In this document: in pieces, positions 748 through 26,539 of the stretch
Layout of the letters: each line of letters opens with the position of its first letter
Numbering within the stretch: position 1 is the first letter of the stretch
Source of the DNA: Chrysochromulina tobinii
Taxonomy: Eukaryota > Haptophyta > Prymnesiales > Chrysochromulinaceae
Direction of reading: 5' to 3'
DNA: 29,043 nucleotides
Assembly: GCA_001275005.1 (NCBI GenBank)
Contig: JWZX01002061.1
Location: forward strand, 1-29,043
Notes under the pieces: model-generated
What the model saw: the letters and a program-made list of their open reading frames with translations, nothing else
Told to the model about the DNA's origin: nothing
Database searches by the model: none
Program-made: the position numbers and the translations under genes

Positions 748-808
748 AAGCCAACCTGCAACCTGATGACCTCTGATGACATCCCTCATCAGAAGCCAAC
801 CTGCAACC
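748..808 (+). mobile_element. Short introner-like insertion in opposite orientation with 16-bp direct repeats
   Basis: A 29-nt core at 764-792 reads TGATGACCTC, TGATGACATC, CCTCATCAG on the plus strand. This is the same sense form seen in the introns of the minus-strand genes, but inverted. It is flanked by a perfect 16-bp direct repeat AAGCCAACCTGCAACC at 748-763 and 793-808, which looks like a target-site duplication. It lies outside any gene I can define. It is the only clearly inverted copy in the window. Confidence 0.65.
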
Positions 809-886: not shown

Positions 887-3310
887 TCAGATGGCGTTGC
901 TCGTGCGCACCACGGCCCCAGCGCCATGGGAGAGGCGCAGCCCAGACGAGCGGTCCATGTCGAGCCTAGCCGAGGAGCGTCGCACAATGTCCTGTGCGCT
1001 CGAGTAGCTCGCGCGCGAGATGGTCACTGAGCGAACCACGTGGATGTCGCCGACGTCAATGTTAACGCCTTTGACCACCTCGCCGTCTTGGTTCTTCTCG
1101 TCCTTCAAGTTGTAGACCCACCTGATGAGGGATGTCATCAGAGGTCATCAGAGGTCATCAGTTGTAGACCACATGGCGATGCCGGCGAGCACCAACCCGA
1201 ACCATCGAGCGCAATCAAGCGCAATCAAGCGCAATCAAGCGCAATCAAGCGCGATCAAGCGCAATCAAGCGCAATCAAGTTGTAGACCCACATGGCGATG
1301 CCGGCGAGCACCAACCCGAACCACTGCTGAAGCGTGAGCGGCTCCGCTTCTGAGCCCATCAGGTAGGGCGACATCGAGAAGACGGACGCGAGGTCGAGGC
1401 AGAGCACCTGATGAGGATTGTCATCAGATGTCATCAGAAGTCACTCAGAGGTCATCAGAGGTCATCAGTGGCCACGGCAGAGAACGAGGCAGAGCACCGT
1501 GCCAATCTGAGTCCAAGTGATGAGGGAGGTCATCAGAGGTCATCAGAGGCCATCAGACGCACCGTGCCAATCTGAGCCCAAGTGGCCGACATGCGTTTCG
1601 TGAGCCAGAGCAGCAACACGTTGAAGACCACGTTGAAGAGGATGTAGATGAGGAACCAGAGCGCGGCCGATCCGCCCTCCGCCGCGCACACCCCATCGCC
1701 CGGGTTGTAGGAGTAGCTCACCTCACTCGCGTTACAGACGGACGGCGTCACCTGATGAGGGATGCCATCAGAGGTCATCAGAGGTCATCAGAGGTCATCA
1801 GAGGTCATCAGAGGTCATCAGAGGGCATCAGCGTTACAGACGGACGGCGTCACCGTAGACACATTCGACGAGGGCAGGTACGGTTGACCCGTTGAGTTTG
1901 TCGGAACTTCGCCAAAGAAGCATGTCCACGCGCGCACGAGGAACTCGCCCGTCTCCAGCGGCGGGTTGTTCGTCGCCGGCGGGGGCATCGGGATCCAATT
2001 GAGCGGGAAGGTGAGCAAGCCCCACATGATCTGCCAATTGCCCGACCACCAGCTCGCGTACATGACTTCGAGATCGACTGATTTGAGGCACCTGATGAGG
2101 GAGGCAATCAGCATGCCATCAGAGAGGCAATCAGAGAACTTCGAGATCGACCACCTGATGAGGGAGGCAATCAGCATGCCATCAGAGAGGCAATCAGAGG
2201 CCATCGAGATCGACCACCTGATGAGGGAGGCAATCAGCATGCCATCAGAGAGGCAATCAGAGGCCATCGAGATCGGCTGAGGTACTTTTGCTTGTAGCAG
2301 TTCGAGATGCCCGCTGGGATGGTGCCCACGACGTAGATGAGGTACCAGTACGCCGACGACTGCTGCAGCGTGCCGCCTGGTGCCGCGTACTCGCCCAGCG
2401 GCGGATCGTTCGTCTGCAAGTTGACGACGATCGACACCAGTCCACTCATCAGTATGAGAGCACAGCCGAGGTAGTGCTCCTGGTCGTACCTGATGAGGGA
2501 GGCAATTAGGTGTCATCAGAGGTCATCAAGAGGTCATCAGTATGAGAGCACAGCCGAGGTAGTGCTCCTGGTCGTACCTGATGAGGGAGGCAATTAGGTG
2601 TCATCAGAGGTCATCAAGAGGTCATCAGCTCCTGGTCGTACCGTGTGCCCAGGTAGATGAGGGAGGCAATTAGGTGTCATCAGAGGTCATCAAGAGGTCA
2701 TCAGCTCCTGGTCGTACCGTGTGCCCAAGTAGAAGATGGAGATGATGACGGTCCAGATGATGGTGAAGTTGGTCATGATGCCCTGGTCGTTCTGCGAGAT
2801 GTACGGGCCCGGGATGCCAGTGATCGCCGCGTTCAGCTGATCCCACAGAGAGAAGAGGGCGAGGCGCCACTGCGAGTACGGCTGGCCAGCGGCGGTCGCA
2901 ATGGTGGCATAGGGCAAGAAGAAGCTCAGATCATAGCGCAGGTCGCCAAGCGAGTAGCGTTGGTAGAGCACCCACGTGAGGCACATGAGGAACTGCGCAC
3001 ACTGCACGCCCACCGGCCAGAGGATGTTGTAGTACATGAGCTGGTAGTTGGCCATCCGGTCGACCACCCGCTTCGAGAAGACACGATCCATGGCCCGCAT
3101 GACCACGAACAGGATGAAGACCGTCGCGAGCTCTGTATTCTCCCACGTGAGCTGCTCCCACATGTGGCGGAGAGTGTGCTTGGAGCATGTGCGCGGTGAC
3201 TTGTTGAGCTCCGGCTCTGAGAGGCGGCTTCGCCGGTGCGGCGCGGGTGCCGTCGTATTGTCCTCGATGAGAGGCGCGGAGACCTCCGGAGCAGAGATGT
3301 GGCGAGACAT
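887..3310 (-). CDS. CRT-like (chloroquine-resistance-transporter-like) membrane transporter
   Basis: Six exons, read right to left: 3310-2718, 2489-2286, 2091-1854, 1751-1563, 1407-1292, 1121-887; 1,575 nt, 524 residues. Family evidence: the first membrane segment is followed by DRVFSKRVVDRMANYQ, the counterpart of the NKIFAKRTLNKIGNYSF stretch of Plasmodium CRT. Later come SLWDQLN, a TRYDQEHYLG stretch before the next helix, IPAGISNCYKQK, and about ten hydrophobic segments in all. CRT-like proteins belong to the drug/metabolite transporter superfamily. Plant members (CLT) sit in the plastid envelope and affect thiol export; the Plasmodium member sits in the digestive vacuole. The substrate here is unknown. 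The N-terminus (about 60 residues) is polar and shows no clear targeting peptide. The start at 3310 is the first ATG ahead of the conserved part. All five introns are decamer-repeat introns. The gene is divergent from selenoprotein S. Confidence 0.8.
1122..1291 (-). repeat. CRT-like intron 5 (decamer-array intron)
   Basis: The sense donor is GTGGGTCTACAACTTGA and the same 17 bases open exon 6, so the donor is a duplicated exon start. The array is CTTGATTGCG-type, about seven units. In the middle lies a second copy of exon-5 sequence (about 45 bp, plus strand about 1162-1206), then CTGATGACCT units and the end CCCTCATCAG. Phase 2. Confidence 0.8.
1408..1562 (-). repeat. CRT-like intron 4 (composite decamer-array intron)
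   Basis: Sense GTGCGTCTGATGG to TCCTCATCAG, phase 0. Between two decamer arrays sits a near-copy of both exon edges: the end of exon 4 (CTCAGATTGGCACG) joined to the start of exon 5 (GTGCTCTGCCTCG). The intron therefore looks like two insertions with an exonic duplication between them. Splicing it out whole joins IGT to VLCLDLAS. Confidence 0.8.
1752..1853 (-). repeat. CRT-like intron 3 (simple decamer-array intron)
   Basis: This is the clearest simple example. The first 23 bases of the intron (starting GTGACGCCGTCCG) are an exact copy of the first 23 bases of exon 4. Then come about six TGATGACCTC units and the end CCCTCATCAG. Phase 0. Confidence 0.88.
2092..2285 (-). repeat. CRT-like intron 2 (three tandem 63-nt units)
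   Basis: Plus-strand unit starts are 2092, 2155 and 2218, an exact 63-bp period. Each unit ends, in sense, in CCCTCATCAG followed directly by GTGGTCGATC. The intron donor is GTACCTCAGCC, an imperfect copy of the exon-3 start GTGCCTCAAATC. Units are stop-free in the exon-3 frame. Phase 2. Confidence 0.8.
2490..2717 (-). repeat. CRT-like intron 1 (three near-identical 50-nt elements)
   Basis: Three copies of the same element of about 50 nt lie at 2490-2540, 2578-2628 and about 2656-2704. They are separated by duplications of exon sequence of different length. A 37-bp duplication (2453-2489 and 2541-2577) is perfect; a 27-bp one (2629-2655 and 2705-2731) has one mismatch. The donor GTACGACCAGGAGC copies the exon-2 start. 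Phase 2. Confidence 0.8.
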
Positions 3311-3575
3311 GGCAAGAGCTGAGGAGCAGCAATCGCGGGCTCGGCGGTCCAAGCAGCGAGGTGCACAGCGCGGTCGTCCGTGTTGAGCGGCACGATGGGA
3401 GGGGAACTGTGTTGTCGGAGTGGCCGTGCCGCCAGTTTCGTCGCGTGCACGTGTTTTGTACAGGCATCTCCTACAGTGACGGAGTCTCGTGAAACCGAGC
3501 TGGGGTTTCGTGAATCCTGTCCATGGAAAGCAGGGCGACCGCCTCGACGACGGCAGAGCAGGCGACGGGGAGGAA
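3311..3575. promoter_or_regulatory. Divergent intergenic region between the CRT-like gene and selenoprotein S
   Basis: The 265 bp between two divergent start codons must hold both 5' UTRs and probably a shared or bidirectional promoter. I see no TATA box or other motif I would defend. Confidence 0.45.
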
Positions 3576-4199
3576 ATGGACATCGACATCGCCACCATCG
3601 CCTCTCAGCACCCTCTCATGACGGCGGTGCTCACGCTCACGCTGGCCTGGTACATCGCGTTTTGGTACGTAAACAAGCGCGGTGTGGTGGTCGGCTCGGG
3701 CGCTGCCGTCGCAAAGGCGGACAAGGATGAGGCCATCCGGCTTGCGCGCGAGCGGCAGCAAGCAGCTCTTGCTGACGCAGCCGTGGCGCGGCTAGCGGCG
3801 GCCCCCGACAAAGTGCGGGCGCCCGCGCCCGCACCAGCTCCTAAGCCCACCGCCATGCCTTCGCGCATGTCTGATGCCCTCGCACGTGCCGAAGCCGAGG
3901 AGGCAGCTAAGGCGGCCGCGGCGGGGCGGCTAGCAGCTGCCCTCGCACGCGCCGAGGCCGGTGGGACCGCCAAGGCGGCGAAAGCGGCAGAGGCACCAAC
4001 TGCTCTTGACGAAACTGCTCCGCCGCCGCCGCCCGTGAAAAAGCACGCCACCGTTGACGATCCAAACTCGTACTCGGCACGGCTGGCGCGCATCCAAAAG
4101 GGCAAGGGGCCTTCCGACCTCAACCCACTAGAGGGACACGCCAGTGGCTCCTCAGCAGGCAGCTCCTTCAAGTGCACCAAAAAGGGAGGCTGAGGATAA
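3576..4199 (+). CDS. SELENOS: Selenoprotein S (VIMP-like), UGA read as selenocysteine
   Basis: The open frame runs from ATG 3576 (context GGAAATGG) through 205 codons to TGA at 4191-4193. It continues with one glycine codon (GGA) and TAA at 4197-4199. The C-terminus is therefore GG-Sec-G-stop, exactly the ending of selenoprotein S in other eukaryotes. Supporting features are one N-terminal membrane segment (about residues 14-32), an Ala/Arg/Glu-rich helical middle, and the NPLEG motif matching NPLSG of human SELENOS. Cys200, six residues before the Sec, could form a selenylsulfide. Known role of the family: an ER-membrane reductase that links Derlin and p97/VCP in ER-associated degradation. 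The ATG at 3576 is chosen because upstream in-frame codons lack an ATG and the hydrophobic segment then sits near the N-terminus, as in the family. A conventional annotation would stop two codons early. No introns. Confidence 0.8.
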
Positions 4200-4458
4200 G
4201 CGCGCACGCCCGCACCCGCACCCACAACCCTGCAGCTTCGACCGCGATCGCCGGCGCAAGCCGGATGGACGAGGGCAAGTAGCAGATGGAGTGGTGGGGC
4301 ACCGCGCGTGCGTGCGCGTCAGACCGTGAGCGTGGATGGTTGGCCTTGCCCGCAAAGGCTCTCCCGCCCTTTCACGAGCTGATTGACGAATCATGATAGA
4401 CGCTTGGCACACCACCCGCCTTCCGACTTTTGTCGTGTACGACCTTCGTCGAGATCGT

Positions 4459-4519
4459 CCTTCGATAAATGACGCTGCGGCTCCAAGCGCTAGAGAGCTC
4501 GCTGCCGAGCAATCGAGGG
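4459..4519 (+). promoter_or_regulatory. SECIS element of selenoprotein S
   Basis: It lies 266 nt after the UGA, in the 3' UTR. Helix I: 4459-4466 CCTTCGAT pairs with 4512-4519 ATCGAGGG (8 pairs, one G-U). Core: ATGAC at 4469-4473 faces CGAG at 4506-4509, giving the tandem G-A/A-G pairs. Helix II: GCTGC GGCTC (4474-4483) pairs with GAGCT (4495-4499), a bulged C, and GCTGC (4501-4505), with one U-U mismatch. The apical loop (4484-4494) carries the unpaired AA at 4485-4486, 12 nt after ATGA. Spacing and core match the eukaryotic SECIS model. Folded by hand. Confidence 0.75.
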
Positions 4520-4826
4520 GGAAGGCGACCAGAAATTCCGACCCGGGACAACCCCGTGTGAGTTTCGCGATCAAATACCGTACAGCTTAGAGAAAGTATG
4601 AGTCCATCAGAGTGTCGCGAGATAGAAAGAGCAAAAGACCGCGATGGAACCGGGGGAGGGGAAAAGGGTCGGTTACCAAGATACCAACAGACCTGCAACT
4701 TTTGACGTGACTCGTAGGCGCACCGAGCGCCGATGATGTTTCTTTTCGGGTCGACCAGACGTGGAACAGAAGAACGAATGAGAGACTCTTGTCTTTTCTT
4801 GCGTCGACGGTCCCCGAGTCGGCAGC
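4520..4826. other. Intergenic, selenoprotein S 3' end to next gene
   Basis: This holds the rest of the selenoprotein S 3' UTR and the promoter/5' UTR of the next plus-strand gene. I see no AATAAA and no RNA gene. Confidence 0.4.
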
Positions 4827-7800
4827 ATGACTAGGCTAGCGCTCACTCATCGCTCGACCGCGAGTAAGAGCGCCCGCTCACCTCTCGAATCGCAAGCAGC
4901 AGCGTACACCTCTTCAGGTCCTCTCCCGTTGCCATCCCCGGCCCCGGGACCTCCTACCAAGAGTTCTTCACTCGGGGGGTCCACGACCTGGCAGGTCGAG
5001 CATGTACCGGTCGCAGCAACGGCGCGAGAATTTTACTCCCGTTCCATAGAAGCATCGGTGCAGCCGGGCTCGCCCACGTCACCTATGGCGGCATTTTCGG
5101 CGCCTGCGACCTCGCACGGCATGAAGGGCCTCATTGGCGATCCGTCGCGACTGGCGATGAATGCTGCGACGATTCAGGATCTGCACCGCACCCCCTTCTA
5201 CCCTCGAGCGGCGGACTTGGCTGCCGCCTCCTTCCGCAGCAACAACAGCGAGATGCTCCATGCAAAGGTGGTCAATGGCACCCTCGTGCCCACTCGACCT
5301 CGGCTATCTCCCATCGAAGCGCTGCTCACTCTCGCGAACGGTTCGCCGTCCGACGTCTCGTACCTGAGCGATCGCCCCGGTCATGGCGCGAATATGACCT
5401 CCAGAGATGCGCCGAAATCGCGAGGTCGCTCGTCGCGCTCGCCCAGAACCCTCGGGGGCCTTCCGCCACATCCGGCTCCGTGGGACTTGCCGTGGGAAGT
5501 GACGTCCCCCATGACTCCCCGACCCCCCACGGCCGGGAAAACGATGAGTCCCCCGCGACGCATCGCGGCGAGCCATGCGGACGACGCTCCTCCTAAGACC
5601 GCGCCTACCTATCCCGGACCTGCTGTCAGCGCATCGGAGTGGGTGAGCGACGATCTGGTGCCGTCGAGCCGCGTCGAGGCAATCCAGACCGCAGAGTGGC
5701 TGCGGCAGGCGCTGACAGATCGGGAAAAGACCAAGCCCAAGCCGAAGGCGAAGAACGATGCGGCGAAGAAAGGCGGAATCGACTCCGCGGCCATCTCTGC
5801 AGAACTCGGACTCTGGAACGAGGCGTTCGTCGAAACCGTGCGGCAGGTGCAGGTGCATTGCCAGGAGCGCGGCCAACTCCTCGACGCCATCCGGATGCGC
5901 TACATCAATCTCGTCGACGAGGTCCTGCGCGAACACGAGGCCGAGATGGAGAGGCTCAGGAAGGAATATGAGGCGCTGATGAAGGCTCAGCAAGAGGCGT
6001 TGACGACGAAGGCTAAGGTTTCGATGAACTTCCAGAAGGCGTCAGCCATGGGGATGCTCGACAGACTGAAGGCGCAGCAAGAGGCAGAAGAGGCGGCGGC
6101 CAAGGGCAGGAAGACTGAGCGGGAGGCTGCCCTCGAGATGCAGCTCGAGGGCCTGAAGCAGCAGATGGAGCTCCTCAGAAACCGGCTCTCTGAACTCGAG
6201 GCCCAGCTCAAGGATCTGCTCGATAAGCTCAACGCACAGCCGACTCTCGAAACCGTGCTCGAGAAGATTGACAAGCTCTCGTCGGACGATCAGACGACGC
6301 TCTCCTATCTTCTCCTCCGAGGCGTCGACGCCAAGGGCGACTATCGCAATCGCTACGCGTCATCCGCGCTCTTGCAGTCCAAGGGCGTGCCCGATGCCTC
6401 CGAGCTCGTCCGCAGCCTGCTCAATGCTCTCGGCCGCCCAGACCGCAGCGCCGTCATCCTGGCGCTCCTGCAAGGACTCGCCACACCAGAGCTGTACGCG
6501 CTGCAGATTGGTATGATCCGTTTGCTCGCCAGCGAGCTGGGAACACGCGCCGTCGCTGCCGACATCATGGCCTCCGTGTTCATCGAGAAGAGCCCGCCAC
6601 CTCTCAATTCCACCTCAGAAGATGCCAAGCCATTCCTCACGGGTGATGGCTTGGAGCTGGCCAGACCCCTCAAGCCAGGACTTCAGGGCGATCGGTACCT
6701 GTCGGCCATCATGATGCTCGAGGCCCTCGGCAAAGAGCCCAGCATCACCGCGCCTGAGTTCCTCAAGGCTCTGAGGGACAAGGGGCTGCCTGATGGGCTC
6801 AAAGGGGGTCCAGGACTCCAAAGAGGAACGAGCCGCGGCGGAGGCGGCGGAGGCGGAGGAGGCTACGGCGTCGACGGGAGCGGAGGCGGCGCCGGTGGAG
6901 GCGGCGCCGGTGGAGGCGGCGCCGGTGGAGGCGGCGGAGGCGGCGGGTACGGCAGCGACGCGGCGGGAGCAGAGGCGGCTGCCGCGGCTGCAGCGGCAGC
7001 GGCGTCGGCGGCGGCGAGGGATGCTGCGGCCGCAGCCGCGGCAGGGATGCAGGGATGGGGCGGGGCGGGTGGCGCCGGCGGAGGGCCAAGGAAACCTGGC
7101 GAGAGTGATGAGGAATACAACGCTCGTATGATCAGAGAAGGAGGCTACGGCCCTGGCGGCATCGGAGGTGCTGGTGGAGGGCCAAGGAAACCCGGCGAGA
7201 GTGATGAAGAGTACAAAGCTCGGATGATCAGAGAGGGAGGCTACGGCCCTGGCGGCATCGGCGGTGGTGGAGGGATGGATGATGCTGAGCTCAGGAGGTT
7301 GCGCGAGGAGAATGCAGAGAAGCAGAGGACCATCGACGATCTCAGGAGGCAGCTTGCAGAGAAGAATGCACGCGATGGCGCCGGAGGCAGCAACGCGTTT
7401 GGAGCGGAGGCGAGGAAAAGGAATCCCGGCGAGAGCGACGATGATTACAACGCGCGCATGAAGAAGCTTGATGATGAGACCGCAGTCGCAAGGAAAAGGA
7501 AACCCGGCGAGAGCGACGATGAATACAACGCTCGCATGAAGAAGCTCGGGTTAGAAGGAGGCGGGTCGGGAGGAAGTGGCAAGTCGGGGGCTGGCGGCGG
7601 CGCTGGGTCGGGAGGCGGCAAGTCGGGGGCTGGCGGTCGTGGAGGGCCAAGGAAACCCGGCGAGAGTGATGAAGAATACAACGCGCGGATCAGAGAGGGA
7701 GGCGGCGGCTCAGGAGGAGGACGCAAGGGTGGCAGGCGTAAACTTGCCGATGGCACCGAGGTTGACGATGACGATGGTACCGGAGGCGCCAGAGGTGGTG

Positions 7801-9113: not shown

Positions 9114-9503
9114 GGGTCGACGACATGGAACATATTTATTTAATCTATTTAATGTATTTAATCGGAGCGAAGCGGAATTGAATTTGCTGCGCTTGATCGC
9201 CTTTGTACCGTGGAAAATTTGCCCTGCGCTGCGTGCACATTCGTTGAGACTCAAAGGACAAAGCGGACTGCGGCGGCTTACCGGTTATAGAAGCGTCCGT
9301 TTCAACATTCAAGATTATGTCATTGAAATTTGCAATGGGCCTCGTGCACGACGCGACACATCTTGGCCACCAACCGCCATGGCCATGCACACCAACCGCC
9401 ATGGGCATAAAAAGTACCGGGACTCGAATCAACGCCGCGGCCCGTGCCGCTCAACCTCACATCATGGTGAGCGGTTCTCAACTTCAGAGCACTAATTGAA
9501 GTC
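9114..9503. terminator. Convergent 3' intergenic region
   Basis: The 390 bp separate two convergent stop codons (9113 plus, 9504 minus). An AT-rich patch at 9131-9162 stands out from the GC-rich surroundings. On the minus strand it contains AATAAA (9135-9140), a possible dynein polyadenylation signal. A 15-bp direct repeat CACCAACCGCCATGG occurs twice near 9366-9404. A weak hairpin CCGCTCA/TGAGCGG lies near 9447-9475. No gene seen. Confidence 0.45.
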
Positions 9504-12500
9504 TCAATCGTCGAGCGCGCAGAGGGCGGCGACGCCCATGCGTACCCAAAGGTCGGGCGACTCATTGGTGGGCACCGAGATCGCGATCACAAAGTTGGTG
9601 GACGCGCCCGTGGTCGAGAGCGTACCGGCGCGCGCTGACGTCTTGTACAAAGGGCACTCGTAGTCGGACTCATCCTTGACACGGTGCGCGACGGGCAAGA
9701 AGTGGATGGTTGGCAGCATGGTGGCCATCTCCTTGGGTCGTGGCGGCTGCAGCCGGCGGCGCGTCCGGTTGTAGCGCGCGCCAGCGAGGAAGAGACCCAC
9801 AACAAGAATACCATCCTCAGGCGGCGGCGCGGGCGTGAACCCGGCCTCGGACGCACCCTCGGCACCAGCCTCGGCGGCGGCGGCGGCGACGGCGTCCGCA
9901 TCGGGCTCGTCAATTAACGTAAAGTCAAAGGAAAGGTAGTCGACGGGCGTGCGGTGCTTGCGTGCGTGCATCTGCAGCACGCCCGTCAGGACGCTCTGCT
10001 GCATGAAGAAGTAGGGCAGTACGAAACGCTCGGGCGGGCCGTACCCGACGAGCCAGCTCCGGATGAAACCGACTCGCTTTTGGAGGTCCGCGAACCAGGA
10101 GCTGAGCGGCTTGAGGGAGGGGTAGGCCACTTTGGCCCAGAGGGAGGGCACCTGATGAGGGACGCAATCAGACGCAATCAGACGCAAACAGACGCAATCA
10201 GATGCAATCAGACGCTCTTCGGGCGGGAAGAGGTTGGGCACCTCTCCCCTCAGCACCGAGGCGAGCATGCGCTCGAGCTCGGACGACATGAGGAGCGTGC
10301 CGTTGACGGCGAGCTGCAGGTCACGCAAGGAGCCCGCGACGGCGCGGAGCAGCGTGTTGAAATGGTCGAGCTCGTGCAGCAGGACGAGCTGGAGCGACGA
10401 GAGGCTGCCCATGTCGACCTTGCCGTCGTCGCTCACGCGCCCGAGAGCGCCTCGAAGGGCTTCGGTACGTTCCAGCGGGGCGGGAAGCTCACTCGTGAGT
10501 CGGGCAGCGAGGGTGGCGGCGGTGAGCTCGGCCGACTGGCCGGAGGCGCCGCCCGAGGCTAGGCGTGGCTGCACGTTGAGGATGGTGCGCAGCACGCTCG
10601 CGCTCTCGGCGAGGCCGTGCGTGATCTTGGCGTCCTGATGCAGCCCAAAGAGTGCCACGTCATCGTCCGCCGGGAGGGCGGCCACGTACGCACGGTAGCC
10701 GTCGAGCTCGCTTGCGGGAGGTGCGACGTAACGGCGGGCGAGCTTGGCGAGGTGCGACGTAACGGCGAGGGCCTCTGCCGAGCCGGAGGGCGCCCGGGAC
10801 GACGCGGGCACGGGGGTTGCTCCATCCCGGGGCGACGCGGGCACGGACGCCCCCTTTCGCGGCGTGGCGCTGCCGCTGCCCGCGCCGCCCGCGCTGCCCT
10901 CGCTGCCGTCGGCGGCGGCGGCGGCGGCGCCCGGGGCAAAGGAGTATCCCTCCTGCAGCGCGGCATCGCAGTAAAAGGAGCCGAGCAAGGAGAGGACGCA
11001 GCGCCGGTCCCATTCGTCGGTGACGCGCCCTCCGTAGTGGATGTGGCCCGTCACGTACGTGAGCGCGTCCCACGGCGCCGTCTTGGGCTGCTGCTCGAGG
11101 AGCATCGCGAGGGTCGCGATCGAGATCTCGAGATCGGTTTCGTTAAAGTCGTACCGGATGTTGAAGCCGAGCGCCCCAAACTTGCGCCGCTCTTGGAGCA
11201 ATGCATGCAGCGTCGTGAGCCCAAACAGGAGCTTACGCCACGTTGGCCGGGCACTCCGCACATCGATTGGCGAGCGTGGCGCCCTCCATCGCCGCCCAGG
11301 TGGCCTGCAGGTTCGCCTTGAGGCCGCGCGGCGGCTCGTACGTCATCTTGACCGCGTTCTGAAGGACGGGCACAGGGAAGTCCAAATTTGGAAACGAGGT
11401 GAGCCACAGACGAAACTCGTCATGGACGCCGAGCGGGTACGCTCCGGCGGAGAGGCCATCGACGGCGGCTGCCCGAGTGCTCACCACGGCGCCCGTCCGA
11501 GTGCTCACCACGGCGGAGAGGCCATCGACGAGCCGCTCGAGGCGCGGCATCCAGCTGGTGGCGAGGTGGCAGTTTTGGAGCAGCACCCAGTGCCCGGCCG
11601 CAACGCCCGCGTCCACCATCTTCTCGGCGACGGGGCCTTGGCCTTGGCCGAGCGACGTCGAGTGCAGCCGGTCGGCGAAGCCCTGCGCGCTCGCAAACTT
11701 GAGCAGCGCACCGAGCGGGTCTGCGCCCGAGGTGAGCACAAAGATCAAGGGCGTGCGCGGCGTCGCGTCCGCAAACGCGGCGCCCAGATTGAGCGGCTCG
11801 CGCTCGGCGAAGCGCTGGCCGAGCGTGCTGCCCACCACGTGCTCCATCGCGCCCAGCAAGATCTCGGGCCGGAGCAGCTTCGTCAAGAGCAGCCTCGCAA
11901 AGGGCGGCGGCGCGCCGGTGCGCTCGTCCACGCGCTCGTCCCAGTCGCCCGGCAGAGGGCACAGCCAGGGCTGCGGCTGCCTCTGCCAGACGGCCCACGC
12001 GAGCTCGCCCGAGATGTCGTCCTTGAGCGTGCCGAGCGAGCTGACGAGCCTCCCAAAATAGGAAGGCAGGCTCGCCTCGAGATGGTGGGCCAACTGCCAT
12101 TGCGACGACTCGAGATGCAGCGCGCTGGGCGGCGGGACGCTCGGTGAGTAGGCGCCGCCCACGCCGCCGCCCGCCGCCGCGCCCAGGAGCAAGCTGAGCC
12201 ACTCGAGCTCGCTGACCTGATGAGGAAAGCAATCAGAGAGTCATCAGCAGCCATCAGCCAAGGAGCCATTCGAGCTCGCTGACCTGATGAGGAAAGCAAT
12301 CAGAGAGTCATCAGCAGCAATCAGCCAAGGAGCCATTCGAGCTCGCGTGACCTGATGAGGAAAGCAATCAGAGAGTCATCAGCAGCAATCAGCCAAGGAG
12401 CTATTCGAGCTCGCGTGACCTGATGAGGAAAGCAATCAGAGAGTCATCAGCAGCAATCAGCCAAGGAGCTATTCGAGCTCGCTGACCTCCCCAGAGGAGC

Positions 12501-15500
12501 GCAGGATGGTCGAGGCGACGAGGAAGGCAAAGGTAGCCTTGTGCGCTTCGAAGAGTCCGCGCGCCACGTTCTCGAAGACGACGAGGGTCGCGTGGTCCAT
12601 TAGGTTGGCGACGCGGCTGTCGAGGTCATCGGAGGGCGCCGCCTGCTGGACCGCCTGCAAGAAGAGCCTCGTGATGTACGTGAGTGAGAATTGATACATC
12701 GGGTCGAGACGCGCCAGATCCGCGGTCACAAAGTAAAGGAGGGAGCCGCGCGCCGCCGCGGGCAAGTAGGACGCTCGCGCCGTGGCGAGCGCTCGCTGCG
12801 TCTTCTCTGCCGCGACGACGCGCCGTCCAATGACGGCCGCGGTCGCCTTCGAGGTCGAGAGCGTCGTGACGAGCGCTTCGTCATCGAGGATGTTCCCGCT
12901 GCTCGACGAGAGCAGTCGTAGGATGTCGTCTTCGAGCCCTTGCAGAGCCGCCCGGTCCGCGGCCATCGAGACGATCAGCTCGTTCTTCTCGTGCTCGAGT
13001 TGCGGCCGCTCCTCGCGCACCACGAGGCCGAGCAGTTGGTCCTCGAGCCCCGACTGCGTGACCGTGAAGTTGATCAGCGTCACCTTGATGCACACCTCGG
13101 GCAGGTAGTGTGGGTTGGGCAGCTTGGTCGTGAGGTACAGCCGGAAGGCAGGGTTCCACTCGACGACCTGCTCGCCCACCTTGATGACACGCCGCCCCTG
13201 CTGCTGGTACACGGCCTGGGTGAGGACGGTCTCGAGGGACGCGTCGAGGGCCTCGCCAATGTCTTCGAGGAGGACGGCCTGCGAGCGAGCGCCCATCACA
13301 GCGCCCATCAGGGGATCGATAAGGGGGCAATCATTGAGGGAGGTGGGGGATGGAGGCGGCAATCATTGAGGGAGGTGGGGGGGACACTCATGATTCCCAA
13401 GTGTGGCCATCCGTATGCACTCAATCATACTCAGCGCTCCTCCCCGCAATCTCACCGCGCCAGATCGTATCGAGCTCTCGAGGCTCTTGAGGAGATGCTT
13501 CTCTCCCGGCCGGCACACGGTCAACTGCCGGCTCGCCTGCTCCATCGATCGGATCCATTTGTTCGCCTGTGCCTGCGGGTCGATCGCGAGCGGCCATCGC
13601 TTTCCAACGGTCGCCAGCAGCGCATTCTCGGCTGAGTAGTCGTCGATGGGCAAGCCCCACTGCTGCCATTGCCGAATTAGGACGGGGTCGCCCATCGTCC
13701 CGACGAGATCGAACGAGATTGCCATCGGGTCGGCGCTCGGCACGGCGCTCATAGTGCTCGGCACGGCGCCTTCGCCGCGGTCCTCTCGCGACGGATCGTC
13801 CGCGCTCGGGGGAGGCTCGGGCGCCGTCTTGGGCATGGGCGTCGCCCGAAGCCCGCATTCGAGGCAGCGGCCTGTCCAGTCATCGAGGAGGCGCCGCCGG
13901 TACGCGGCGGTGAAGGGGCCCGCGTAGGCCACGAAGGCCGAGCACACGAACACGGAGCCCGTCAGCCCGCCGAGCCGCTCGCGTAACGTCTCCGCGGTGA
14001 CAGTCCATCGAGAAGATTCTTCCGCAAGGCCCGAGGTGAGCTTATCCGCCGTGAGCAGCCGTCGAGCCGTCGTGTCAGCCGCCTGCTGTAGACGAGCCTT
14101 CTCGGCGAGCGTCACGTCGCACTCCGCTTGCAGGTCGTCCACCTTCTTGACCACTGCGGCGAGCGCCTTCTCGACGACCTCAAGCTTGAGCTTCTCGGCG
14201 TCGAGGGTCGCCTGCGCCGTCGCGAGCGCTTGGCGCTTCGGTTCGATGACGGAGGCGACGTCGTTGTAGATCTTCATCGCGCGGCACCACAGGCACAGGC
14301 TCTTGCATGCTAACGACACCTTTTCGACCACCTCCGGCACAAAGTCGGGCTCGTCATAGTACCTGATGAGGGAGGCCATCAGACGCAATCAGACGCAATC
14401 AGACGCAATCAGACGCAATCAGACGCAATCAGACGCAATCAGACGCAATCAGACGCAATCTCTGATGCAATCTGGCACAAGGTCGGGCTCGTCGTAGTAC
14501 CGATTGATCTCGCGGATCACGCGCGCGGGGATGTGGTCCTTGTCGTACTCGACGAGCTTGTCCATCAGATATGGGTCGGAGAGGACCTTCTTGGCGGAGT
14601 CCCAGTCCGTCTTCGTGCCGAGCAGCACGCACACCGCCTCCATCACCTTCATCACGAGCGGCGGCGGCTTCGCGTACCTGATGAGGGAGGCGATCGGAGG
14701 CAATCAGATGCAGTCGGACGCAATCAGATGCAATCAGCAGAACACTCCAAGGCGTACCCCTTGACCTCGACCAGGTCCTGGTGAGGGAAGCAATCAGCAT
14801 GCAATCAAGGCGCACCCCTTGACCTCCACCAAGTCCGACTTGGAGAGCGACTTGAGCGACTTGACCGCGCTCTCGAAGGCGGGAAGAGCCTTGTCGAGGT
14901 CGGCCTGGGCGTCCTGTGCCATGCGCTCCACCTCCGCAGACGTGATGGCAACGGCCGCGGCCTCCTTCTCGACCTGCGCCTTCTGAATGTTCGCCTTGGC
15001 CGTCTCCGACTGCACCTGGGCGAGCAGCTGGCTGGTCTCGCGCGACTTTTGCTCGAGGATCGGCTGCAGCTCAGAGAGCTCGATCTTCATCTGCGCGACC
15101 GACGCGTTCGCCTCGCGCAGCTTGACGACGCCGCCTTCGAGCCGCTTGCATGCGGTGCCCACCTCGGCGCGCTTGGCGCTCAGCATGGTGGAGTAGAGCG
15201 CGAGGAGCTCGAGGAAGGACTTGGGCGTCACGTACGAGCGGCGGCGCTGCTCCTCGAAGAAGACGTCCGCCATCTCGCGCACCGAGGCATGCACGTACGC
15301 GGCGAGCTCGCCGAGCGTCGTCCTGGTCGGTGCGTCCTCCTGCATGCTGCCCGACTTGGCCGCGGCGTCGAAGAGCTGCTCCGCGACGGCCTTGAGCGCC
15401 TCCTCGGGCCACGGGTCGTACCTGATGAGGGAGGCCATTGGGAGTCATCAGAGGTCATCAAGAGGTCATCATAGGCAAACATAGGCAATCGGGAGGCAAT

Positions 15501-18500
15501 CAGGAGGCAATCAGTGGCACTCAGAGGCAATCAGAGGCAATCAAGAGGTACCTAGAGGCAATCAAGAGGCCATCAAACGTACCAGTCGATGGTGGTGCAG
15601 TTGATGAGCGAAGGGAACTGGCGGCAGCGCGATCGGAACGCATCACCCACGGGCGAGAAAGCGAGCACCAGGTGTAGGTGATCGCGCACGCGAGCGATGA
15701 AAAAGGAGCGTAGCGCGTCTCGCGTCTCTGGCAGCCCCGCCTCGCCTGCGGCCTTCCGAAGTCCGTTGAGCAGCTGGTCGAGCTCTTCGGGCGGGAAGAG
15801 GTTGGGCACCTGACGAGGGGCGGCGGGAGATCAGTGCGTCATCAGTGCGTCATCAGGGCGTCATCAGTGCGTCATCATGGCGTCATCAGCGGCAATCAAG
15901 GGAGATTTCACCTCGCCCGAGTTGAGAAGGGAGTCGACGTCTTCGAGCAGCGTCTCCGACACGATCTGCGAGTCGCAGAACAAGAAGGTGACGTCGACCC
16001 CCTCGCCGCCCGCGCTGACGTACAGACCCTTGAGATCCTCCCGAAAGTCCGCAGCCGAGTAACCCTTGCGCAGCTCGATTTGGAAGCACTTTTGGCCGCA
16101 CACGAACGAGGCGAAGCGGGTGAGCGACTGTTTGCCCGAGCCGCCCACGCCCACGAGCATCGCCGAGCCGCGCGGCGCCGAGAGGACGCGTGCGAGACGG
16201 CAGACATGCTCGATGGCGTCGGGGAAGAAGACGAGCGGCATCGGGCCGACTGATGAGGTGTACTCCTCCAAGTACGCATGGAGCACCGGCGGGAGGGTGT
16301 CGGACGCGTGGAGGACGCGCCCGTAGCTCGCGCCCGCGCCGCGGTCGCCCACGTCGGCGATGCTCGTCGAGAAGGCGGCGTACACGAGCTTGCCCGCATC
16401 GAGATCGTCATCTCGAATCTTGAGATCGCCTCCCTTCCAGTGCACGCGCCCGAGCTCGAGCAGCTTGTCGCGCAGCCAGGCGCGGTCCTCACCATCGACG
16501 AGCCGGTCGGAAAAGGTGCGCAGGCACTCGTGCCACCAGAGGTGGAGAAGCGCTGGCCGACCGGTCAGCTGGCTGGGCTGTACGCGCAGCACGCCCTGGA
16601 TCACCTGATGAGGGACGCAATCAGATGCGATCAGAGGCGATCAGATGCAATCAGTCCGGACGCACGCCCTGGATCACCTTGGAGAGGTCGCAATCAGATG
16701 CAATCAGATGTGATCAGATGCGATCAGATGCAATCAGATGCAATCAGCCCAGGATCACCTTGGAGAGGTCGCGCAGGTTAAAGGTGTAGTGCGGCTTGGC
16801 GGGGATCGGCCGGAGCGTCCTGGTCACGTCCTCGTAGAGCATGATCGATGACTCGACGAGGGGCTTGACGCACTCGCGCACCTGATGAGGGACGCAATCA
16901 GATGCCATCAGATGCCATCAGATGCAATCAGATGCCATCAGATGCAATCAGAGGCCATCAGAGGCCATCAGATGCCATCAGAGGCAATCAGCGCACCTCA
17001 AGCGGCCGCTGCGCGAGGAAGCCGCCCACGATGGCGCTCAGGATGGCGCGCAGTGAATGGGCGGACGGCTGTGGGAAACAAAGCACGTGGTGATGACGCA
17101 CGAAGCGCGGCGTCAGCGCCGACCGGCCGCCGCCCGGCGGCCCGCACGCGCACACGAGGGTCACGTCGGTCACGTCCTTCCAAAAGGGCTTGGTGCGGTC
17201 GTACAGCCCGCCGCGATCGACGAGCAGCCGGAGCAGCTCCACGGGCGGCGCGGCGCCGTACTGCTCGAGCGCGGGCATGTTCACGTCGTCGACGAAGAGG
17301 GCGAGGCGCTTCCCGGGCGGAGGGCCGAGTTGGGTGCGGCGCAGCTTCTCGAGACGCATCTCGATCATCATCTGCGTCGCGCCCGCCGACGTCTGCGCCG
17401 AGAAATTGAGCTGCGCCGAGATCCAGCTGGGCGCGATCTCGGTCGTCGGAGATGCAATCACGCCCTCCGCCATCTGCGAGAGCACGCTCTGCACCACGAC
17501 CGACTTCCCCACACCCGAGCCTCCACAGAGCATCGTGGGCTTCGACGCGCCCAAGTTGGCGCGCAGCATGAAGGCCGCGCACACCGTGTCCACCGTGGGG
17601 ACCAGGATGCGGAAGAACGGGAGCGTGCCGCTATACGTGAACGTGGGCACGAGCGACTGCCATGTGACGAAACTTGGGCACGGCGCGACCCGCCGCTCGG
17701 GCGGCGCGGCCTTGGGCCCCTTTTTGGCGCCCGGAGCGGCCTTCTCCTCGACGCGCTTGGGCGGGGGCGCGAGCGCGAGGTCGTGCACCGTACCTGTGGG
17801 GAAGTGGGCGGGGCGTCGTGGTGAGCACTTGCATGCCCCAGGGACGCAATCAGAGGCAATCAGAGGCAATCAGAGGCAATCAGAGGCAATCAGAGGCAAT
17901 CGGAGCGTACCGTGCGTGGGCACGATCGATCCTTCCGGGTCGACGTGCTTGCGCACGAATTCGTCAAAGGCGGCGCGCGAGGCTTCGTCAATCGAGCCGC
18001 CGAGCGTCCACACGAGGCAGAAGATGAAGAGCGACGTGATCCCGCGGCTCGAGATCCGCTCTGACGAATCTGACGAATCCTCCGCGTCGGCCGCCGCGCC
18101 CACCCCGCCTGCCGCGCCCACCCCGCCTGGCGCGCCCTTGGTGTCCGCGCCGCCGCCGGCTGCCCGCACGGTCGAGGCGGAGGGCAACGGCTGCTCGGCA
18201 TGGCGCTCGGGCACGAGGCCCGCGTAGCCGATCAGGGAGGCGAAGAGGGAGCTGAGCGCCATGACGAGCGCCGCGTCCACTGTCGGCACGATCTCCTTGC
18301 ACCGCAGGCGCACAAAGGAGAGTGCGCCGGGCACGTGCTTGTGGAAGAGGCCCTTGAGCAGCGCCGTGGCGGGCGCGTCCCACCCAAATAAGGGCAGCGT
18401 CTTGGCTGCCCATGAGGCGATGAGCGGCTGCCAGCCGAGGGTCTCGTCAGAGACGTACACCATGCCGCACCGGCTGACGGTCGCTGGCGAGGCGGCAGCG

Positions 18501-21500
18501 AGGTCCTGCACCTCGAAGAGCATTCGCATCTGAAAGTTGAGCTTGATGCGCTCCGCGTTCGCCAGGCAGAGGGTCATGTTGTCGTCGAGCACGGTGTTCA
18601 TGTTCTCGATCCAGAGGGCGTCGACCGGCCCGTCAAACACGGTCCACCGGTGGGCGGCCGTTTCAGACGTGTCGACGACCGCCTGCCGGATGAAGAAGGA
18701 GGCGAGTCCATCAGTCCACTCCTGCGTGAGCTCGTTGAATTCTCCGTAGAGCTCGCCCATCGAGATGCACTTGGGGTTGAAGACGACCGTGTGCACCTTT
18801 TGATGTGAGCTGTCGGCCGAGCCGGCCGCATGCAATGACGAGAGCGCGTCGCGCGTCGTGTTGAGCACGGTCGACTTGCCTCCGGCCGCCGGCCCGACGA
18901 GCATCACGCCGAAGCGCACGCGTAACGTCTGCTGCAGCTCGACCACCTTGCCTAAAAAGGCGGGAGCGGGCTGGAAGCCGAGCGCCTTGAGCTCGGCGGC
19001 GGCAGCGCGTTCGAGGGTCGCGTACTCGGTCGAGGCGGTGACCTTGACCTCCGGGTACAAGTCCGTCACGATCGCATGGAACAGAGGCAGATCCTGGGCG
19101 AGGAAGCGCTGTAGTGAGCACTTGCATGCAAGGCAGATCCTGGGCGATGAAGCGCAATCAGTCGCAATCAGTCGCAATCAGTCGCAATCAGCCACCTGGG
19201 CGAGGAAGCGCGGCACGTTGGCCTCCTGCATCGCGCGGATGAGCGCGAGCGCCTCGGGCAGCTCGGGCGAAGATCGCTTCTGGCCGCCTGCCATGACGAG
19301 CACCGACTTGACCTGTCGCATGCCGTAGTCGCGCTGTGGTGAGCACTTGCATGCAAGGCAGATCCTTGGGCGATGAAGCGCAATCAGTCGCAATCAGTCG
19401 CAATCAGTCACCTGGCGCATGCCGTAGTCGTAGTGGTCTTGCTGCGAGAGCTGCTCGGAGCAGAGCTTGTACCTGAGTAGGGATGCAATCAGGGGCCATC
19501 AGAGGCCATCAGAGGTCGCTCGAAGGTCATCAGAGGCCATCAGCGGTCAGTCAGAGGCCATCAGAGGTCGAGCGAAGGTCACTCATCAGAGGGCACTCGG
19601 AGGCACTGAGAGAGACTCTCAAGCAGCGGGTGCTCTGCATACATCATGACCATCTTCACAGCGAGCGGGCGTGAATCGACGAAGCCCTCCGCGTACAGCA
19701 TGATCTCCGCAATCAGCGCGTAATCAGGCACCATCATCGAGACCGGGCGGAAGAGCGCCTTGAGGTTGTCAGGCAGCTCGGTGCGGCCAGCGTAGCCCGG
19801 GTTCATCGTGATGCACACGTTGTTGGGCAGCACACAGATGCGACGGCCCTCGAAGAGGGCGGTTGGGGCTCCAGCGAGGCGCGCCTGCCGAATGGTGAGC
19901 AGCTGCTGCGCGACGACCGAGAGCACCTGATGAGGGAGGCAATCAGGAGGCAATTAGGAGACAATTAGGAGGCAATCAGGAAGCAATTAGGAGACCGAGA
20001 GCACCTCGATGTTGATCCGGTTGAACTCGTCGAGGCACGTCCAGCAGCCGCACTGCGCCACGCCCGAGAAGAGCTTGCCCATCGTCTTGTAGTCCAGCTG
20101 GTCGGAGCAGTTGTACACGATGCACTGCTTGGCGAGGCCCTTGGCGAGGTCCTTGACCGACTCGGTCTTCCCGGTACCCGCGGGGCCTGCGGGGGCTCCA
20201 CCCAGACTCAGGTGGAGCGCCCCACTCAGCGTCATCCAGCACCGGTCGGTGAGGGGAGTGACGACGAGGCGCGTGGGCACCCCCTCGTACTCGAAGCCGT
20301 ACCTGTGGGGAAGTGGCGGGGGCGCCGTGGTGAGCACTTGCATGCAAGCAGCAGCTGTTCGTACTCGAAGCCGTACGCCATGGTGGAGCTCGCTTGCTGC
20401 ACGATGCATGAGCCGCCACCGAGTGACTTGATGCTCGCCCCCGCGCCCCCCGCAGTGAAGTTGCCAACGGCTTCGGTCTCAGCGGCAGGCGCACTCGCAC
20501 TGCCCATCTCAGACGGCTCGAGATAGCCAGACGCTCGCTTCTTGAGGCCGTCGCGCGGCAAGGGCTTCTGCGCATCCGAGCTCCACTCGAAGCGCAGCTG
20601 CATCTGCCACGTGAACGAGTGCTTGGATGAGACCCTCTCGTCGACCATGGTCTCGGTGATATCGCGCGCATGCACGTCCGACGTGATGAGCGCCACGAGC
20701 GTGCGCCGGAGCAGGTGAGGCAAATCTCCCGACACCTCGCGCGCCAGATCGGCGAGCTGCGAGCGCGCCGTCTCGAGCACCCCTTCGAGCGCGCCCAGCC
20801 GCGCCGCCTCGGGCGCCTCGAACGCTCCCACGACGGCCTCGCACCAACCAATCTGGGCGGCGGTGAGCACGAGCTGCGACGGGTGTCGCCGGCACCATCC
20901 GAGCCGCTCCATGGAGGTCTGCGGGGCGTCCAGATGCGCCTCCCGCAGAAGCTTGTGGAGGGTGGCTGCCATGGCGTCCTCCACCCTGCTCAGCCACTCC
21001 TCGACGGCGCCGCGCGTGCGCACCGGCTTGAGGAAAGGCACCACCTCGCCCTCGCTCGAGATCATCGTCGTGATGTCGAGTGCCACGTCAGAGGGCGCAA
21101 AGTCGAGCTTCTTGATGCAGTCGAAGCACTTGATCAGATGAGGCTGCACCGCCATCGGGTTGCGCGCCTGCGCAAGGATCTCAAGCAGCTCGTCGTTTGA
21201 AAGGAAGCAGAAGCGCGGGAAGGCCTGCCGTTTCGTCTCGAGGTGATCCTCGACGCGCTTCTGCGTCTTGGCGAGCGTCTCGTTCGCACTGCGCAGCCAA
21301 TCGAGCACGCCGGGCGCCGTGCACGCCTTGAGCGCCTCGGGGTCTTTCTCGACGCCCTGTGCAAGAGAGCGATCGAAGGAGGACGTCAGAGGCCATCGGC
21401 GACAATCAGAGGGCCATCAGAGGGTCATCAGAGGGCCATCAGAGGGTCATCAGAGGGCCATCAGAGGGTCATCAGAGGGTCATCAGAGGGTCATCAGAGG

Positions 21501-24500
21501 TCCATCAGAGGGCCATCAGAGGGTCATCAGAGGGCCATCAGAGGGCCATCAGAGGGCCATCAGTCGCCATCAAGGGCACTCACCTTCATCAGCGAGCGCC
21601 ATCCTTGGTCGACCGATTGGAACATCTTGAGCTCGGTGGGCAGCTGGCGCTGTATGTCGGGCGCGACGAAGATCGACTCGAGATACATCCACGAGCGCTG
21701 GCACGCGAGCATCTCATCCATCGTGGCCGAGAAGAGCTGAAGCTTCTGATACCACATGTCCGCCTCGGAGCGTACCGCGGGGACGTGGGGCGAGGCCATG
21801 ACGGACTGGACCACGAGCTGTGTCTCTTCGAGGGTGGCGAGCACCTCATCCACCGAACCGAGCACGCAGGGGTCCTTGCCGTCCCGGAAGGTCTTCACAG
21901 TGAACTCGGACAGCTTCCACTGCTGCTGCACCTTGTCCATCATCTCGAGGAGGACCTGCCGAGAGTGACGAAACCCATCGACGGAAGCCATCAGTGAGGG
22001 CCCTCATCAGGGCAATCAGCGAGGCCATCAGGCGCCATCTGTTCGAGATGCGGTCGCGCAGTACCGCCTCCTGCGACGCGTCGTAGGCCATCTTGGCCAC
22101 CAGACCGTTGTGCACATGCAGCCGCCGCTCAACGGCCACGCGATACGTCAGCTGCTCGCCCCGCGGCAGCGGCTCCGCCGCCAACGCCACCGCCGCCCTC
22201 GGCAGCCCCTTTTCGGCCTTCACAGCCGCTGCGAGCGCCTTCTCGAGCGCGTTGTAGTGGGCGGGCTTCAGGTGAGGGGTGCGCACGCTCACGACGACGG
22301 GTAGCATCGAGCGGCTCTCGTCGATCAACGCCTTGAGACGCGGCACAACCGTGTTCGGGGGCATCCCCCTCTCGGCCTGCGAGAGGGCGCGGGTGTAGCG
22401 GAGCGTCGCCGCCTCCATCTCGCTCGGCTCGAGATGTGCGAGCGGCAGCTCGGCCCGAGCCGCCTTCGCCTTCTCGCCATCGTCTACGCAATTCCACAGC
22501 TCGGTCGCGATGCGTAGCGCCGTCGTGAGCGACTTGACCTCGTCACACGGGACCACGGGGAGCTGCAGCGAGCTCTGCCAGCGCTCGAGCTGGGCGGCCG
22601 CCTCGAGCAGCTCGTTGACGATCCCTTTGGCGCCCTCGAGATGAGCGAAGACGTCCGCCGGCGCTGTCGAGCCATCAAAGAGCAGTGGAGCTTCGGCGAG
22701 CAGCCGCTCATCGGCCGCACGCGTGCGCAGGGCGGAGAGCGCGGCCCCCACGCGCTCCGTCCAGCTCGCCAAGCGCTCCGTGTAACCGCTCTCGTGCTCG
22801 CCGATGGTGTTGGAGAGCGACGTGAGGGCCTCGGCAAGCGCCTTTCGCGTCGCCTTGGCGCCCTCGGAGGGTGCAATCTCAAACTCGGCGCAGAGCTCGT
22901 GGCACTCATTCGAGTGCTCCCAGCGCCTCGAGAGCTTATCGAACAGCTCGGCCGAGCGGCGCAGGAAGAGGGCGTACTCGACAAACTGGCCAATGCCCTC
23001 GGGCTTCTGCCGAAGGAATCCGTCGGCGTCCTGCACCTGATGGGGGAGGCAATCAGGGCTCATCAGGGGCAACCAGCTCGGCACCTGATGGGGGAGGCAA
23101 TCAGGAATCCGTCGGCGTCCTGCACCTCGCGCAGGATGCTCGACGATTGCTCATCGGCAAGGCGCGGCAGCAGCACCCGCACCGCGGCGAGCGAGCGCTG
23201 GGGCGCGGGCGTGAGCCGCTCGCGCAGCGCGCATGCATCGGCCGCAAAGATGCCCACGTGCACGTCGTCGTACATGGCCTGGTAGAGCGCAATCTGAGCG
23301 TCGAGCTGGTGCATCTTCTGACGAAACTCGTCGAGCCCTTCGGCGCGGCTGTGGTGCGCCAGCGGGCGCATGCTCTCGGCGTCGAAAGTCTCGTTTTCAT
23401 AGAGCAGCCGCGCATGCCCCGTGTACTCAAGGAGTAGGGCGTCGAGGGCGCGGTAGTTGCTCCGCACGAGCGCCCGCAGCGCGTCGACATGCGGTCGGGC
23501 CGACTCGGAGAGCAGCGTGACGAAACTCGTATGGCCCTCGGGCTTCTTGCTGCTGCTGCCCCCGGCGCCCCCGGCGGTGGACGAGCGTGCGCTGGGGGGG
23601 AGGGGGGCGTATGCGCCGATGGCGGCGTCGGCGGCGAGGTCGAGGGCCCCCTCCATCGCCTCGTCTACCGGTAGGGGTGTGAGCTCCATGATGGGCTGTG
23701 GCTCAATGTACCTAATGAGGGAGGCAATTAGGAGCACTCAGAGGCCATCAGAGGCCATCAGAGGCCATCAGAGGCAATCAGAGGCAATCAGGTTGCGGCT
23801 CAATGTACCTAACGAGGGTGGTCATCACAGGCAATCAGAGGCAATCAGCATGCAATCAATGGGCTGTGGCTCAATGTACTGCTTGAGCTCCGGCGCGTCG
23901 AGCAGCGAGCCAACCGCCGCGAGGACGTCCACTGGCTGTGCGACGAAGGCGACGAGGAGCTTCTCCCATTCGGCGCCGGCTGGCGAGTAGCGCACGCGCC
24001 CATCGGCGAGGGACAGGCGCACGCTGAACAGGATCGTCGGGGGCGCCTCGGACGGAGCGTCGTCCTTCTCGGCGGCGGCGGCTGAGGCGGCGGCGGCGGC
24101 GGCCGAAGCGGCAGGAGCAGCCCCGGGTGCGGCGGGCGGCGGCGGGGTCGCGCCGGACGTGTCGACTTCCTGGTCAACGTCCCTCGCACCGCGCGCCGCG
24201 TTCCGCTTGCGCGCCGCCCTTGCCGCCTCCTCGGCAGCTTGCCTGACCGCCTCGGCCGCCGCCTCGGCCGCCGCCTCGGCTGCCTCCTCCCACGCCTCCT
24301 GCTCGAGCGCCGTCGCGAGCAGCATGGGAGGCGTCACGCCCTCGCGAAGCAAGCCAGCACGCCGCGCGAGCCGAGCGGACGTGCTCGAGGCGCGACAAAA
24401 CGGAGGCGGCGCAGGCGGGAGCGTTAGGTGCGCAGGCGCACCGGCCGCGGCGGCGGCGGCCGCGGCCGCCGTCGCTGCGCCCGGCGGTGTGCGGGCATTG

Positions 24501-26539: not shown

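Follow-up and report, generated by a model that had tools for sequence, protein, structure and literature searches.

The stretch of DNA analysed here, referred to below as the window, is the whole of contig C987 (29,043 nucleotides; GenBank JWZX01002061.1), part of a draft genome of Chrysochromulina tobinii that comprises 53,154,812 bases in 2253 contigs. Chrysochromulina is a haptophyte genus. The main gene of the window lies on the minus strand, codes for a dynein heavy chain and is crowded with introns, many of which end in the same short acceptor and begin with a copy of the first letters of the next exon. These introns and their counterparts elsewhere in the genome, which fall into two sequence families named A and B, are the subject of this analysis; there are so many of them that this alga seems to have undergone massive intron gain.

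Nineteen introns (I1 to I19) were placed in the dynein gene; the donors of I2 and I7 were re-placed, and the placement of I3 is uncertain. Twelve of the nineteen have as their 3' end CCCTCATCAG or a form of it with one or two changes, and GT opens the next exon after 16 of them, which bears out the original prediction, made from the letters of the window, that most introns share an acceptor. All 14 exact copies of CCCTCATCAG on the minus strand of the window are followed by GT, against neither of the two on the plus strand, and Tandem Repeats Finder (TRF) reports arrays of 10–11 bp in the gene. Excision of 15 introns (I4–I18), six of them with a length that is not a multiple of three, opens a reading frame that starts at the I4 junction and runs for 2754 residues, or 12 fewer with the later-placed donor of I7, before it meets a stop. 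An open-frame test with 60 nt of flank at either side had no discriminating power (spliced joins were open in 23 of 27 cases, unspliced ones in 6 and those shifted by one base in 21), and dynein homology was therefore relied on instead. The best solved-structure match of both spliced pieces is 8glv_Fm, with a gap-free alignment at all 11 junctions covered (I5–I9 and I11–I16), a figure weakened by the position of the I5 and I11 junctions at alignment starts and by the fitting of the I7 donor to the homology (moved from 19606 to 19642), so that nine junctions are well within an alignment, eight of them unfitted. Consistency of the predicted splice sites with protein homology is thus supported. 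The dynein frame also breaks near 11240 (about 11230–11260, minus strand), by the motif WRKLLFGL and with no obvious intron, perhaps through a one-base assembly error.

Genome-wide, the acceptor CCCTCATCAG occurs 2889 times against 35 for its reversed control. It is directly followed by GT (CCCTCATCAGGT) in 1827 places (control 2) and by A, C or T in 474 (control 30), while the 10-mer pattern CTGATTGCCTCTGATTGCCT, at up to two mismatches, is found 4997 times (control 0). Both patterns exceed their controls by far, and the wealth of sequence-related, in part putative, introns at many separate and unrelated places agrees with the proposal of an introner-like family. In 97 distinct exact acceptor copies, conservation amounts to 0.55–1.7 bits per place from -20 to -11 and falls below 0.5 bit upstream of -20. 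The conserved part is a cassette of 20 nt, CTGATTGCCTCCCTCATCAG, which holds one branch-point motif and the acceptor, the ten letters preceding the acceptor following CTGATTGCCT. The A of the motif lies 16 nt ahead of the terminal G in 82 of 98 sites, a sample selected for a unit close to the acceptor, and no AG intervenes in any of the 98. The U2 RNA of the genome has the usual branch-site region, GUGUAGUAUCUG.

The original prediction had taken the 10-bp array to be the body of the element, and this part of it did not hold. The branch-point consensus YTNAY stands in register in the slot at -20 in 75 of the 97 copies, and in only 42, 27 and 23 at -30, -40 and -50. Such weak conservation upstream of -20 points to the array as variable growth of the first half of the cassette; by this measure, the array is not the conserved part of the element. 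Whole units have also been copied in tandem, as with units of 68 bp repeated 4.3 times and units of 63 bp repeated three times, both at 97% by TRF, leaving internal CAG/GT joints. AG and GT are depleted in the arrays (19 against 92 expected and 43 against 193), which follows from the repetition of one unit and is no independent evidence. In eight of the 98 family A sites (L030, L031, L035 and L038 among others) the acceptor is followed by GC, and some left copies start with GC, which suggests the presence of GC-AG introns.

The 98 family A sites, each an array with an acceptor, comprise 20 from the window, 11 from evenly spaced stretches, 63 from places picked for dense acceptors and four from loci hit by patterns, so that the sample is drawn for the larger part (63/98) from acceptor-rich places. 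A copy of the exon start was detected upstream at 55 of these sites, scoring higher than 99% of 2819 mismatched pairs, where about 1% would be expected; by source, it was present in 13 of 20, 5 of 11, 35 of 63 and 2 of 4 sites, respectively. Copies of this kind had been anticipated with a length of 5–27 bases; their existence was confirmed and the range was not, the copies here being mostly of 12–47 bp. In 38 of them the left copy has no acceptor just before it; 32 of these fall within that range, and the other six measure 59–60 bp, as they continue into an array that is itself repeated. GT starts 42 of the 55 copies and is missing from the start of 13, and 25 are identical to the exon. A separate set of 38 clean insertions has direct repeats of 16–55 bp (median 26.5). 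Its search required a score of at least 16, which sets the lower bound and leaves shorter repeats outside, and repeats containing an array unit or acceptor, repeats preceded by a unit and duplicates were excluded from it. These lengths are too variable for the fixed duplication of a transposon or a normal target-site duplication. A donor provided by the duplicated exon start, with the acceptor and branch-point motif provided by the inserted sequence, is supported by these alignments and agrees with the division of labour originally put forward, the 20-nt cassette and the exon copies apparently filling the two roles. The features of the window are collected in the table.

Introns and related insertions in the window (positions are those of the whole stretch)
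Feature	Position	Strand	Description
I19	10152..10241	-	first letters copy the exon start after I13, then 10-bp array and CCCTCATCAG
I18	12217..12486	-	about four tandem units of exon-start copy, array and TCCTCATCAG; period 68, 4.3 copies, 97%
I16	14363..14500	-	exon-start copy of 27–30 bp with 2–3 changes, CTGATTGCGT array, CCCTCATCAG; junction gap-free
I15	14678..14815	-	two units in succession; junction gap-free
I14	15422..15582	-	array and CCCTCATCAG; exon-start copy of just 5 bp; junction gap-free
I13	15810..15911	-	array, variant acceptor CCCTCGTCAG; no exon copy detected; junction gap-free
I12	16605..16758	-	array between 26-bp exon repeats with AAG/GT; second array, 16-bp exon-start copy, CCCTCATCAG; junction gap-free
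I11	16882..16996	-	10-bp array and CCCTCATCAG; copied start about 6 bp; junction at alignment start, ungapped
I10	17794..17910	-	array, family B core and CCCCACAG acceptor; junction outside the homology alignments
I9	19094..19195	-	array and family B core; acceptor AG inside 17-bp repeated exon end; junction gap-free
I8	19313..19411	-	array and family B core; acceptor AG in 21-bp exon-end repeat; near copy of I9 exon piece inside; junction gap-free
I7	19473..19642	-	acceptor CCCTACTCAG; donor set at 19642 by homology (earlier 19606)
I6	19927..20004	-	exon-start copy of 12 bp, array, CCCTCATCAG; junction gap-free
I5	20303..20376	-	exon-start copy of 18 bp, family B core, CCCCACAG; junction at alignment start, ungapped
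I2	23037..23125	-	exon-start copy of 23 bp; two acceptors of the form CCCCCATCAG
I1	23712..23879	-	exon-start copy of 21 bp, partly repeated within the intron; variant acceptors
Intron of other minus-strand gene	1122..1291	-	exon-start copy of 17 bp, two arrays, CCCTCATCAG
Intron	1752..1853	-	exon-start copy of 23 bp, CTGATGACCT array, CCCTCATCAG
Three 63-bp tandem units	2092..2275	-	each ends in CCCTCATCAG followed by GT; donor not fixed; 97%
Tandem-unit intron	2490..2717	-	exon-start copies and CCCTCATCAG
Copy outside placed exons	748..808	+	two units and CCCTCATCAG between 16-bp direct repeats that start AAGCC, not GT
CTCATCAGAG array outside placed exons	520..621	+	23-bp direct repeats on either side, one mismatch, no GT start
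Antisense family B core within dynein exon	11445..11529	-	19-bp direct repeats on either side; repeat and insert 66 bp, in frame

The second family shares this way of building introns and adds another. Its core, GCATGCAAGTGCTCACCAC, occurs 2191 times genome-wide at up to two mismatches (control 1). In one arrangement the core is followed by an acceptor of the type CCCCACAG, with exon-start copies of 13–40 bp at nine of 16 sites; in the reversed arrangement, which was observed and left uncounted, the core comes after a donor such as GTACGTTGATTGC and the AG is taken from the repeated exon end. The similar repeats in both arrangements suggest that the insertion process may be shared. The single design originally envisaged, with exon copy and acceptor, therefore exists, yet beside a second family and a reversed arrangement. 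In viral contigs the core was matched once, at the end of a contig of 4554 bases (L065, positions 4495–4513) and with a CACAG/GTGAG acceptor, and the 20-nt cassette of family A had no match. The contig is filed as viral, and its frames are, we take it from their motifs, phage-like; a chimeric assembly being possible, it was not used as evidence for a viral vector.

Some insertions seem to have no part in splicing. The two outside the placed exons and the antisense core within a dynein exon are flanked by direct repeats, which suggests that insertion needs neither splicing nor GT. The repeats would then come from the insertion itself, and the excess of GT in genes would reflect selection for insertions that can be spliced. 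In the same window, an array lies between 26-bp exon repeats at 1494–1584 (minus strand) with a truncated acceptor, where use of the nearest AG would add nine letters, and intron gain at this place may have been imprecise.

A few introns carry a piece of another exon. The 30 bp formed by the first letters of I19 and the two letters before it (10214–10243) are identical at all 30 places to the exon start after I13 (15782–15811). A 25-mer from this piece is matched exactly at no more than two places in the whole genome, 10214 and 15782, which are 5.5 kb apart; a third place (contig C1779) differs at three letters. A family B intron in contig C8 likewise carries an exon piece with one exact match elsewhere, 1.9 kb away, which is also the only other one at up to two mismatches, and I8 holds the I9 exon piece in a version longer by one letter; a genome pattern search matched just the two copies at the I9 site. 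Under strict filters seven self-matches were listed, one of them for I19 and two for the C8 pair; of the other four, two are near repeats inside a single locus (L031 and L008), one is antisense over 22 nt and one concerns a family B acceptor. Microhomology at the left junction has a median of 1 and a mean of 2.2 nt (n = 22, null mean 0.48; mean 1.5 without values of at least 8), and at the right junction a median of 2 and a mean of 2.5 nt (n = 11, null mean 0.45; mean 2.0 without such values). These counts replace an earlier one (means 2.9 and 4.2, null 0.55) into which tandem units had been mixed. Together, junction microhomology and the two locally carried exon pieces favour templated insertion.

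Comparison with relatives bears on age. A protein frame 79% identical to the dynein on a 38-kb contig (P0121) runs uninterrupted through I7–I9, another on a 909-base contig (P0134, 88% over 62% of the query) through I6–I9, and a third (P0145, 67%) through I13, all taken as unspliced frames. The original prediction had named introns at the same positions in distant relatives as the finding that would speak for old introns; at I6–I9, relatives instead run without interruption, evidence there against introns that are old and had a satellite grow in them later. At I6–I9 and I13, the absence of the intron from the same site in relatives is the pattern of a recent gain, as far as these frames are indeed unspliced.

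We consider it probable, on the strength of these observations, that the elements are young spliceosomal introns of the introner type, composed of an exon copy and a portable acceptor and spread by template switching. The portable piece would be the 20-nt cassette in family A, with its branch-point A 16 nt before the terminal G, and the core, often with its acceptor, in family B. Template switching during DNA replication or repair would bring it to a new place: the new strand would advance some 16–55 nt into the exon, switch at a few matching letters to a cassette at another site, copy it and return behind its starting point. The left exon copy, where it starts with GT, would serve as donor and the cassette as branch point and acceptor, so that splicing would restore the message. 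Genic insertions without a usable donor were probably lost to selection, and arrays and chains of whole units would arise later through tandem copying. A bolder form of the proposal, which we advance tentatively and with rather less than even confidence, is that these are self-spreading introns without a transposase, in which the bare cassette spreads by template switching at microhomology, creates its own donor through duplication of 16–55 bp of the exon and forms chains in which units meet at AG/GT with no intervening exon, possibly spliced stepwise.

Intron gain of the introner type is well supported; as the route of spread, template switching fits most of the facts, and RNA-templated copying is its main rival. 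In the latter, a resident reverse transcriptase would use excised intron RNA, with its 3' end CAG, as the template for target-primed synthesis at a nick in the DNA. Capped copies have a fixed CAG right end and a variable left end, as would be expected from such retroposition, the repeat lengths are variable, as target-primed insertion yields them, and the genome has 26 RVT_1 matches, 22 of them above the cut-off. However, none of the ten RVT_1 loci examined, out of the 26 matches (2.5–3.7 kb each), had an array pair, cap or core, uncapped arrays have no fixed right end, and the junction letters, as judged by eye, are common to both sites in each case of a carried piece. Repeats of up to 55 bp are also long for the target-primed route, and on balance we regard it as unlikely. 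A non-autonomous DNA transposon, a miniature inverted-repeat transposable element (MITE)-like introner moved by an unknown transposase, appears more improbable still. It would explain dispersed copies with flanking repeats, some of them antisense or outside placed exons, and the cassette ends CTGAT...ATCAG form, by eye, an inverted repeat of 5 bp; but the clean repeats of 16–55 bp show no fixed target-site duplication, where the portion of PMC9860276 available gives 3–9 bp for some earlier introner families, the conserved unit is just about 20 bp and arrays without an acceptor behave alike (transposase genes were not searched for).

Exon pieces that contain AGGT might also have been duplicated in tandem, a satellite then growing in place; this mechanism belongs to a class set out in the accessible part of PMC3443670 and would account for the exon repeats around AG/GT and for the tandem copies of whole units. 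It leaves unexplained a 20-nt cassette common to many loci, the last ten letters of which stand before GT 1827 times: a shared cassette needs a copied source, independent origin being unlikely, and we give this explanation very little credence. Least of all do we believe that the introns are old and a satellite grew in them later, or that the arrays are no introns at all. Divergence is seen in some exon copies, as in I16 with its two or three changes, yet 25 of 55 are identical, the relatives are uninterrupted at I6–I9 and the dynein homology fits the removal of the introns.

Several observations weigh against the reading of young introns spread by template switching. No exon copy was detectable at 43 of the 98 family A sites and seven of the 16 family B sites, and as donors the left copies have not improved on balance (two better, two worse and 31 equal), in a test biased by the finding of copies through a matching prefix. 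Capped copies keep the fixed right end CAG even without a following GT, as at 748–808, and an RNA-templated or transposon route predicts the same. The sets used for microhomology are small, their largest values stem from repeats whose ends resemble arrays, and repeated sampling in the null draws makes the p-values optimistic. Array units are no more alike within than between loci (723 against 6828 pairs, the observed mean being reached in 1276 of 2000 permutations), so that local sourcing is not general; this comparison covered a small part of the genome, in which a distant source of a carried piece is undetectable. As to age, P0134 ends seven residues beyond I9, and for both P0121 and P0134 the status of unspliced genomic frame is an assumption.

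The elements are clustered in the genome. In 20 evenly spaced stretches of 10 kb (L009–L028), there were 12 exact acceptors, six of them followed by GT, and 15 family B cores, while 12 of the stretches had neither acceptor, core nor array; two stretches, L011 and L017, held eight of the acceptors and 12 of the cores. A mixed draft genome or the invasion of particular genes could explain this clustering. Elsewhere in the window, a PsbP-like protein (27607–28437), so named from its homologs, is 57% identical to its counterpart in Prymnesium parvum and 58% to that of Emiliania huxleyi among named relatives, metagenome proteins being closer. At an E-value of 0.001, neither this protein nor the exon of the other minus-strand gene was assigned a Pfam family. 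A long open frame at 4824–9110 (plus strand), next to the intron-rich dynein gene, has matches to EF-hand and axonemal dynein light chain domains just under the Pfam cut-offs.

The origin of new introns is a long-standing open question. Introners have so far mostly been interpreted as small transposons, according to the part of PMC9860276 at hand. If template switching proves true, massive intron gain would be possible without a transposase, a portable acceptor and error-prone copying being sufficient. Moreover, the long exon copies record where the duplication starts and ends, so that each site can show how its intron was born and, through the identity of the two copies, roughly when.

Among known systems, the introners of Symbiodinium microadriaticum are similar in that the element brings the 3' splice site and the duplicated target gives the 5' splice site (Gozashti et al. 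2022, PMC9860276, in the text available); they differ in having, according to the same text, a 4-bp duplication and terminal inverted repeats, in place of the variable repeats of 16–55 bp, the 20-nt cassette and the arrays found here. The reversed arrangement of family B resembles introner family 5 of Chrysochromulina sp. TARA_PON_109_MAG_00232, which carries its donor and takes its acceptor from the target, again with a 4-bp duplication as far as that source goes (PMC9860276). Direct repeats also mark gained introns in Daphnia, attributed in the accessible portion of PMC3443670 to the repair of staggered double-strand breaks with inserted filler; those repeats are short, whereas here one cassette is present in thousands of copies. 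In the model of AGGT tandem genomic duplication (same portion of PMC3443670), a duplicated exon piece likewise gives the splice sites and the message is restored, but no shared cassette is inserted. The introners of Amoebophrya are another case of mass intron spread with direct repeats at the boundaries, differing, in the part of PMC7789003 seen, by direct repeats of 3–5 nt, inverted repeats of 8–20 nt and many non-canonical splice sites. In the titles and abstract beginnings of open-licence literature, among the matches listed, neither a portable acceptor cassette combined with long exon copies of variable length nor a branch-point satellite was mentioned. Compared with known introners, the introns of this alga amount to a new variant, set apart by an exon copy that is long and of variable length, by the 20-nt cassette and by a second family that can be used in two ways.

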